From an uncultured Eubacteriales bacterium (lineage in GTDB: Bacteria > Bacillota > Clostridia > Oscillospirales > Oscillospiraceae): a stretch of DNA of 42,561 nucleotides. The position numbers were made by a program, and so were the translations under genes. This document shows, one piece after another, positions 38,770 to 39,690 of the stretch (position 1 is its first letter; each line of letters begins with the position of its first letter). The notes under the pieces were generated by a model. That model was not told the DNA's origin and searched no databases. It saw only the letters and a list, made by a program, of their open reading frames with translations. The stretch spans positions 1-42,561 of the forward strand of contig ONVI01000015.1 of the NCBI GenBank assembly GCA_900321275.1. The letters run 5' to 3'.

Positions 38770-38859
38770 TATAAGGCGAAGTTTGCTGCAGGTCGCGCTG
38801 CCTTCAAAACAGGCTGTCCGCTTTGATTCTAAAGAACTCTTAAACCGGGCCGGAACGGA

Positions 38860-38889
38860 TTGACAATTGATTTGGTTTATTATATTATG
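38860..38889 (+). promoter_or_regulatory. Promoter of the double-glycine LysM peptide gene
   Basis: -35 TTGACA (38860-38865), 18-bp spacer, -10 TATATT (38884-38889); leader of about 50 bases with AAAAGGAGA before the ATG. Confidence 0.7.
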
Positions 38890-38946
38890 TCGACAGCCAA
38901 AGGATGATAAATAAAAAATCAAACACAAGAAAAGGAGAATATAACA

Positions 38947-39180
38947 ATGTCTGATGAAATGAAAGTCCTCAATGATCAGGAAGTCGAAAATGTTTCCGGC
39001 GGTGGCGCAAACGGCAACTTCTGGTCCGATGGCGGCGCGATCTACTACCGTGTCGTTTCCGGTGACACCCTCTCTGAGATCGCTCTGAGAGCGCAGGTCC
39101 CCATGAGCCAGATCCAGGCGCTCAACGGTATCAAGAATCCCGACGTGATCCGCGTCGGTCAGATCCTTCGCATCCGCTGA
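38947..39180 (+). CDS. Double-glycine leader peptide fused to a LysM domain
   Basis: 77 residues. Residues 1-19 (MSDEMKVLNDQEVENVSGG) match the class II bacteriocin / double-glycine leader pattern, in which a peptidase-containing ABC exporter cuts after GG. A short Gly/Asn-rich spacer follows, then residues 33-77 form one complete LysM domain (YYRVVSGDTLSEIALRA...GIKNPDVIRVGQILRIR), which binds GlcNAc-containing glycan such as peptidoglycan. The predicted mature product is therefore a 58-residue secreted wall-binding LysM peptide. ATG 38947 has a strong AAAAGGAG site and its own promoter and terminator. No C39-type exporter or modification enzyme is in the window. Export and cleavage are inference from the leader. 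Confidence 0.85.
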   Translation: MSDEMKVLNDQEVENVSGGGANGNFWSDGGAIYYRVVSGDTLSEIALRAQVPMSQIQALNGIKNPDVIRVGQILRIR

Positions 39181-39186
39181 GAACAA

Positions 39187-39230
39187 ATAAACAGAACCGG
39201 GAAGCAGCAGTGCTTCCCGGTTCTGTTTAT
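39187..39230 (+). terminator. 20-bp perfect terminator hairpin after the LysM peptide gene
   Basis: ATAAACAGAACCGGGAAGCA (39187-39206) pairs fully with 39211-39230 around a GCAG loop. The stem ends in TTTAT on the plus strand. Confidence 0.88.
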
Positions 39231-39268: not shown

Positions 39269-39298
39269 ACAGCCCCGGCGCTGCTGCGCCGGGGCTGT
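39269..39298 (-). terminator. Terminator after the second double-glycine peptide gene
   Basis: Perfect 13-bp stem ACAGCCCCGGCGC / GCGCCGGGGCTGT with TGCT loop, followed on the minus strand by TTTTCTTTTC. Confidence 0.85.
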
Positions 39299-39555: not shown

Positions 39556-39690
39556 TTGTCATGCTTCTTCCTGTATCGTCTTGAATTGTCTGTTTCCTTC
39601 TTGCGGGGAAATCATAACACTGTGAGTGTCGCATTACTGTCACACAGTCTATCATATTGCCCCGGACAATTCAAGCCGTGAGGACATTAA

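Follow-up and report, generated by a model that had tools for sequence, protein, structure and literature searches.

The gene at positions 38947..39180 (+ strand, 77 aa plus stop) of the window, by which we mean the whole analysed stretch of 42,561 nucleotides, likely encodes the precursor of a secreted wall-binding mini-protein, which would be one cargo of a genome-wide export system. Read as an open reading frame and represented by 115 homologs, it starts with a double-glycine (GG) leader of 19 residues (MSDEMKVLNDQEVENVSGG, 38947..39003, + strand) that carries the PCAT consensus of L at -12, E at -8, V at -7, V at -4 and GG, with C39 cleavage predicted after G19. Residues 34-76 (39046-39174, + strand) match the LysM domain in Pfam (PF01476, 59.5 bits, 3e-16, cut-off 20.9). 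The original prediction had placed a leader end ENVSGG and a full LysM domain in this protein; residues 14-19 of the translation do read ENVSGG, and the domain boundaries it gave (33-77) agree with those from Pfam within one residue. The predicted mature protein of 58 residues (39004..39177, + strand), based on Pfam, homolog conservation, AlphaFold2 and Foldseek, has a computed mass of 6300 Da and a pI of 9.7 when cut after G19. Expression signals upstream of the gene are an AAGGAG ribosome-binding site read from the sequence (38932..38937, + strand) and a predicted σ70-type promoter, TTGACA-17-TATTAT (38860..38888, + strand), with 11 of 12 consensus bases, sites of such quality being found twice in the stretch vs 1.3 times in shuffled sequences.

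In the AlphaFold2 model confidence is low for residues 1-20 only (block pLDDT 48 and 51) and the remainder is ordered (86-92), so that the order boundary coincides with the GG. A fold search with this model returned PDB LysM chains on top, with probability 1.00 and a best E-value of 4e-3 (none at E <= 0.001), and a profile search of PDB sequences with the window protein matched Ecp6, LytE, SafA and others. In LysM sequence and fold the protein thus resembles wall LysM proteins such as LytE, SafA and endopeptidases, but these matched proteins are mostly parts of longer chains, whereas here LysM stands alone with a GG leader. Finding a GG leader or a C39 exporter is usually taken to indicate a bacteriocin or a signal. 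Neither of the two class II bacteriocin models exceeded its cut-off for the window protein (P0001): the Pfam bacteriocin family PF10439 scored 13.3, under its cut-off of 27.1, and TIGR01847 was not listed at E <= 0.1. TIGR03949 scored 19.9, with a cut-off of 21.5.

The search of the host genome (2.74 Mb, 93% complete) for a C39 exporter, which the original prediction had called for, gave two C39 matches. The first is one full C39-peptidase exporter of the NHLM type on contig C58 (TIGR03796, 928.3 bits, cut-off 853), with a neighbour matching TIGR03797 (740.8 bits, cut-off 709). Its peptidase part reads QMEALECGAASLAM...HWNFNHFVVLDG...NDPARG, and the C39 residues Q, C, H and D were judged by eye to be in place. 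The second, a weak match on contig C61, lies in an open frame of 280 aa whose start is signal-like and was rejected as an exporter. Upstream of the C58 exporter are genes for a STAS protein and for a short TIGR03794-like protein, corresponding to the first part of the adaptor (45.5 bits vs 156.2), and the first gene of the locus, directly upstream of the exporter operon (L006:9239-9565), encodes a GG-leader protein with two CW_7 repeats (95.1 bits, leader MSDEMKKLSEKQLDAVSGG). Among the seven ORFs of this exporter locus (L006:9239-18708) there were no modification enzymes (LanM, YcaO) and no response regulator, and no model for a nitrile-hydratase-like or Nif11 long leader was listed at E <= 0.1 for the window protein, its GG-leader neighbour P0002 or the C58 cargo. 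DUF218 proteins are present both in this locus and in the exporter locus of the related genome G017. The route first proposed, from GG leader through C39 exporter to release, is partly supported, in that an exporter is present and the GG is conserved, but the exporter is of the NHLM type and does not belong to a class II bacteriocin operon.

The own genome contains at least 15 scattered GG-leader genes with a common leader pattern and differing cargos, which were collected by a TIGR01847 search, the ENVSGG pattern, LysM and CW_7 searches and later scans. Seven of these are GG-LysM genes (on C29, C64, C55, C59, C38, C61 and C46); when LysM was searched irrespective of the leader, 7/10 genomic LysM places were short GG-leader proteins, with the other three in open frames of 387, 459 and 532 aa. 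Both CW_7 proteins found in the genome (C58, C2) also bear GG leaders, as do a PepSY protein on C55 (44.4 bits, cut-off 24), SH3-like proteins on C59 and C70 that were assigned by eye and are below the Pfam cut-off, the window's second GG-leader protein (P0002), and further a small CxxC-pair protein on C26 with no family over cut-off and a short peptide on C10. All 15 leaders have L, M or I at -12; an acidic residue is found at -10 in 14, L at -7 in 12 and V at -4 in 13, an agreement that is partly due to selection, as about half of the leaders were picked by leader pattern; the searches that gave the LysM and CW_7 genes used the domain and not the GG. Two of the own-genome leaders (C58 and C55) are over the TIGR01847 cut-off, and at E <= 0.5 this model matched 1/14 control genomes vs 20/60 genomes of the relatives set, with 6/14 controls matching at the looser E <= 10. 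A genome-wide search for a V-x-GG pattern with a fixed upstream Leu was dropped, its control counts being above the match counts. Other leaders of the ENVSGG type are present in the host genome, and what was first taken as a possible system of the window is instead a genome-wide set with its exporter on another contig.

LysM binds GlcNAc-containing glycans. CW_7 is described as binding GlcNAc-MurNAc-dipeptide, a muropeptide (PMC5705596), so that two unrelated wall binders share one leader, and the LysM and CW_7 cargos have wall binding in common. From the shared leader we infer that the C39 domain of the single NHLM-type exporter on C58 would recognise residues 1-19 and cut after G19, and by analogy with PCAT1 that the 58-residue remainder would be pushed out unfolded and fold outside, where the LysM domain, going by its type, would bind the GlcNAc-MurNAc glycan of peptidoglycan, most likely the producer's own. 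At least 15 leaders would be handled by this exporter, with LysM, CW_7, PepSY, SH3-like and small unassigned folds as cargos. A prefolded LysM domain could resist translocation, which is a point against export. PCAT1-CtA of Clostridium thermocellum, as described in PMC6959990, has a 24-residue GG leader with L at -12 and L at -7 and a 66-residue cargo, the cargo being unstructured and specificity being conferred by the leader only, and the C39 domain from a Lachnospiraceae strain is described as removing leaders from diverse peptides (PMC6363468). The window protein resembles PCAT1-CtA in the leader pattern bound by PCAT peptidases (PMC6959990, PMC6363468), but differs from it as described in that the cargos here are recognised wall-binding domains (PMC6959990).

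The homolog set of the window protein (115 at E <= 0.001) came from a protein search that seeds on short shared words, so that very divergent relatives are missed. Conservation of the GG among homologs had been named beforehand as one of the points on which the prediction would stand or fall, and [VI][STA]GG is kept in 112 of the 115, all of which were inspected; the three exceptions comprise a 55-aa fragment that has no leader and two sequences reading VAAGG and VSSG. In the 114 alignment rows that reach the GG, G18 is present in 112 and G19 in all 114, and the residue that comes next is mostly G (103 rows), otherwise A (10) or V (one), so that the cut is most likely after G19. The stretch ahead of the LysM domain is conserved as well, with A21 and G23 in 114/114 aligned rows, W26 in 112 and G29 in 111. 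Among the 113 leaders with the GG pattern, in which the GG itself is present by construction, L is found at -12 in 99 and V at -4 in 107. Judged by its sequence, the leader fits the description of PCAT/C39 substrates, with hydrophobic residues at -12 and -7, V or similar at -4 and GG at -2/-1. One homolog (P0054) carries the name bacteriocin-like.

With regard to selection, the window protein is 73% identical to its relative from the G027 species, with a dN of 0.13 and a dS of 0.38 for the mature part, and in an 87-aa GG-LysM subfamily of six genes dN is smaller than dS in 29/30 leader and mature comparisons; purifying selection is visible in the GG-LysM genes. This bears on whether the protein is a bacteriocin-like weapon, the LysM part of which would dock on the walls of competitors and block synthesis or hydrolysis there. 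Weapons tend to diversify, which is at odds with both the identity to the G027 relative and the purifying selection, and the cargo contains a domain for binding but none for killing; the leader and exporter are nevertheless of bacteriocin type, the mature pI is 9.7, and LysM and CW_7 can bind walls of other species. The neighbours scanned around the gene, a metallophosphoesterase, the second GG gene and an epimerase, included no immunity-like gene, immunity proteins being a poorly modelled class. We regard the weapon as decidedly unlikely, and coating of the own wall is preferred over attack because the genes scanned include no toxic part, immunity gene or modification enzyme and the sequences are conserved. 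Of the roles that had been put forward (coat, decoy or signal), coating or protecting the producer's wall fits best, and the most likely use of the exported set would be to coat, mask or stiffen this wall, for example against hydrolases.

We expanded the analysis to 60 genomes, 37 of which are of the same genus (own genome included), and 14 controls. LysM matches at 1e-6 were found in 12/60 genomes, all 12 within the genus, and a GG leader could be read in at least one copy for each of the 12 and in 29/30 LysM loci, the exception being L017 (G031:C50) with VGAG instead of GG. A TIGR03796-type exporter was present in 21/60 genomes, of which 20 are in the genus, and in 0/14 controls; these counts use the curated cut-off only, as any ABC transporter matches at the search threshold (60/60, and 14/14 controls). 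GG-LysM genes are present in 12/20 same-genus genomes with the exporter vs 0/17 without it (Fisher p = 7e-5, a number weakened because these are drafts from one genus, related and often incomplete). Absence of GG-LysM here means the absence of a close relative only, since the 1e-6 search found 3/7 of the own-genome GG-LysM genes; G021, counted among the 17 genomes lacking the exporter, has a partial match that includes the peptidase part, and the search for C39 exporters of other kinds covered just the own genome. In 8/12 genomes (G007, G010, G013, G017, G022, G026, G031 and G034) a GG-LysM gene and an exporter gene share a contig and are no more than 10 kb apart, the nearby exporter gene in G031 and G034 being a TIGR03797 fragment or an ABC match without peptidase part, and in G000, G015, G027 and G033 the two are on different contigs. 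The window's own GG-LysM gene is not close to the exporter. The export of the GG-LysM set, as predicted, is well supported by these genomic data.

The same data speak to the notion of a vestigial or cytoplasmic protein, i.e. a small internal LysM protein in which ENVSGG is a linker. E. coli Kbp, a potassium-binding cytoplasmic LysM protein, is among the fold matches, but the presence of GG-LysM tracks the exporter, and the leader is retained across the homologs (112/115) and common to CW_7, PepSY and unrelated cargos, which makes a cytoplasmic role very improbable and leaves export as the preferred reading. CW_7 was found in 10 of the 37 genomes searched for it (24 of these 37 in the genus), in GG-leader proteins in eight and in open frames of 412 and 329 aa in G020 and G044, respectively; seven of the eight GG-CW_7 genomes have the exporter over cut-off, with G009 (65% complete) as the one without. 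In an order-wide search (295 genomes, E <= 1e-8) the matches listed outside the own genome were all in frames of at least 193 aa, hence GG-LysM was not found outside the genus in this search. Separately, 80 of at least 364 confirmed loci matching the window protein were checked, giving frames shorter than 150 aa at the match in two and a GG leader in one, that of Oscillospiraceae bacterium RGIG2509 (L088), where TIGR03797, a GG-LysM gene (leader end KASGG) and a TGTGACA repeat occur in one stretch. Eight exporter-bearing genomes of the genus have no close GG-LysM gene, G001 among them. This genome has 28 matches to the bacteriocin leader model, many of them clustered (e.g. on C65, C69 and C78), a large expansion of other leader peptides.

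The second GG-leader gene of the window (P0002; 39313..39555, - strand, 80 aa, leader ending LENVSGG), again from ORF reading, has 41 homologs, of which 40 keep the GG, and the remaining record is a 57-aa sequence that begins past the leader. Its mature part is strongly conserved (KYWLVRQNGTVISPVP...FGRDLVW); a fold search gave nothing in the PDB at E <= 0.001, and no domain was over cut-off, with a Pfam HTH_3 hint (0.0056) below it. A neighbour like this gene was not listed near GG-LysM in the G027 relative (L079), so that, going by this one relative, the pairing of both window GG genes does not look general. Between the two convergent genes lies an inverted repeat of 20 pairs (39187..39230), a possible 3' hairpin of the LysM gene that is terminator-like on the - strand only, followed by a terminator-like hairpin of the second gene (39269..39298, - strand; 13 pairs, 11 of them G-C, then a T-rich tail). 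Upstream of the second gene is a direct repeat, TGTGACA-N4-TGCGACA (39627..39644, - strand), which has one mismatch to the scan core and is a candidate operator.

This repeat is an instance of a recurring sequence upstream of GG genes, GTGTGACA-N4-TGTGACA, seen for example in L073, L075 and L077. We searched for TGTGA-N6-TGTGA with at most one mismatch in the 200 bp upstream of 57 GG-like genes, collected by leader pattern from the fetched loci of the genus, some of them spurious and none removed. The repeat was upstream of 35/57 genes vs ~0.7 expected, with 22/57 lacking it, the background rate being 41 in 672,330 (18 long loci, both strands) or 0.012 per 200 bp, and 0.006 in base-shuffled sequence. 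A TAnnnT sequence follows exactly 10 nt past the second 7-mer in 33 of the 35, genes that are not fully independent as they include orthologs. Cargos of the repeat-bearing genes are LysM, CW_7, PepSY, SH3-like, a 140-aa family and P0002. Counted from the site, the 18 long loci contain 34 sites with a -10 box, of which 28 are followed by a GG gene, and the other six precede one gene for a 663-aa lipoprotein-like protein, two other short ORFs and, in three cases, no called ORF; in the exporter stretch of G022 (L076) no TGTGACA repeat site was found. In PhoB boxes, two direct repeats of 7 bp are separated by a spacer of 4 bp, and the -10 box lies about 10 bp downstream. On sequence grounds, the candidate operator of the GG genes has this OmpR/PhoB-type architecture.

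In the own genome, repeats with at most one mismatch precede the LysM and PepSY genes on C55, P0002 and three Sec-signal-like genes (C8, C10, C98), and the C10 GG peptide has one with two mismatches upstream; only the better sites were used, as the two-mismatch scan gives 12 sites vs 9 for a control pattern. The sequence upstream of the window LysM gene has no TGTGACA repeat. It contains another element, CTAAAG-AACT-CTTAAA(C) (CTAAAGAACTCTTAAAC, 38829..38845, + strand), a possible regulator site in common with the promoter of the GG-LysM paralog on C64. As an exact 17-mer this element occurs at these two genomic places only, 14 nt before the -35 box in both promoters, and only this exact pair counts, since the other two matches have three mismatches and a control pattern also gives four matches at up to three. 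Lacking the TGTGACA repeat and having an element shared with the C64 paralog alone, the window LysM gene is probably controlled in a different way.

Among the exporter clusters tested, two (L073, L075) carry genes for response regulators. The cluster in G007 (L073) has two of these, Trans_reg_C exceeding its cut-off in one and falling just short of it in the other, together with genes for a histidine kinase and an M15 D-Ala-D-Ala dipeptidase; the cluster in G017 also has a response regulator gene. Together with the PhoB-like repeats, this suggests that the GG set is probably switched on by an envelope signal. The kinase, the regulators and the dipeptidase of the G007 cluster, along with the candidate operator common to GG genes, could also be taken to mean that wall fragments captured by exported LysM and CW_7 proteins, or these proteins themselves, feed the histidine kinase as sensor ligands. 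The regulators look like controllers of the cargo rather than its readers, however, and signal peptides are usually short and unfolded, so this is an unlikely role. The adaptor role, in which LysM and CW_7 would anchor other envelope proteins such as the large lipoprotein-like products of the clusters to the wall, has in its favour the large proteins with signal-like starts between GG genes of some clusters (L073, L077) and the same TGTGACA repeat at the gene for the 663-aa protein, but no conserved partner was seen beside the window LysM gene, and we consider it unlikely. Returning to the coating of the producer's own wall, it is conceivable, at a little less than an even chance, that in this genus an NHLM exporter of bacteriocin type has become a secretion system devoted to wall decoration, in which a two-component regulator acting on the TGTGACA repeats would switch on swappable leader-tagged LysM, CW_7, SH3-like and PepSY folds, which would assemble into a coat or shield of protein on the peptidoglycan of the cell itself.

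The nearest precedent is MAM of Faecalibacterium, an abundant envelope protein with a GG leader and proposed export by an adjacent PCAT (PMC12184118). Both MAM and the window protein are GG-leader proteins of gut anaerobes; MAM, for which processing and export by a PCAT are proposed, is found at the cell envelope, but as described it has no known domain, a leader of the form MMMPAN...VxGG and its own adjacent PCAT in most species (PMC12184118). The leader of the window protein begins MSDEMK and its exporter is on another contig, so that it does not belong to the MAM family, and here a single NHLM exporter is accompanied by numerous cargos with known wall-binding folds. In its main text, the MAM paper (PMC12184118) does not mention LysM, NHLP or NHLM. 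TIGR03796 and TIGR03797, the families that the exporter proteins match above the curated cut-offs, are those of the NHLP/Nif11-NHLM system (PMC2887384), whereas, compared with that system as described there, the leaders here are short, the domains are recognised, the seven ORFs of the exporter locus contain no modification enzyme, and the TIGR03794 adaptor is a fragment. Haft 2010 remarked that the exporter is distributed more broadly than the precursors that revealed it, with a chance of further precursors (PMC2887384), and the GG set is a candidate answer to this remark. No work joining C39/PCAT export with a LysM or CW_7 cargo was found in the literature covered, which was partial, with subscription journals largely outside it and PMC5524665 and PMC3482391 (both with 'double-glycine leader' and LysM) not included. 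The apparent use of one export tag on many small wall-binding proteins, sent out through a single bacteriocin-type exporter, suggests a means of covering the cell surface that has been little described. If such machinery routinely exports wall-binding modules, some predicted bacteriocins of gut Oscillospiraceae would belong to the envelope, with MAM as a single example of a more widespread practice. Both the leader rule and the candidate operator make the system searchable and testable.

Finally, several further genes were seen in loci of the relatives. Large genes with signal- or lipoprotein-like starts are located between the GG genes of exporter clusters at L073:786-3260, L073:4162-6267 and L077:10953-13952, the two from L073 having no Pfam match over cut-off. 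A GG-leader family of ~140 aa with no clear Pfam domain was seen in L046, L047, L049 and L073 (19321-19743), in the last of these beside the exporter cluster. The M15 D-Ala-D-Ala dipeptidase gene of the L073 cluster (L073:16396-17055) hints at a link with peptidoglycan precursors.
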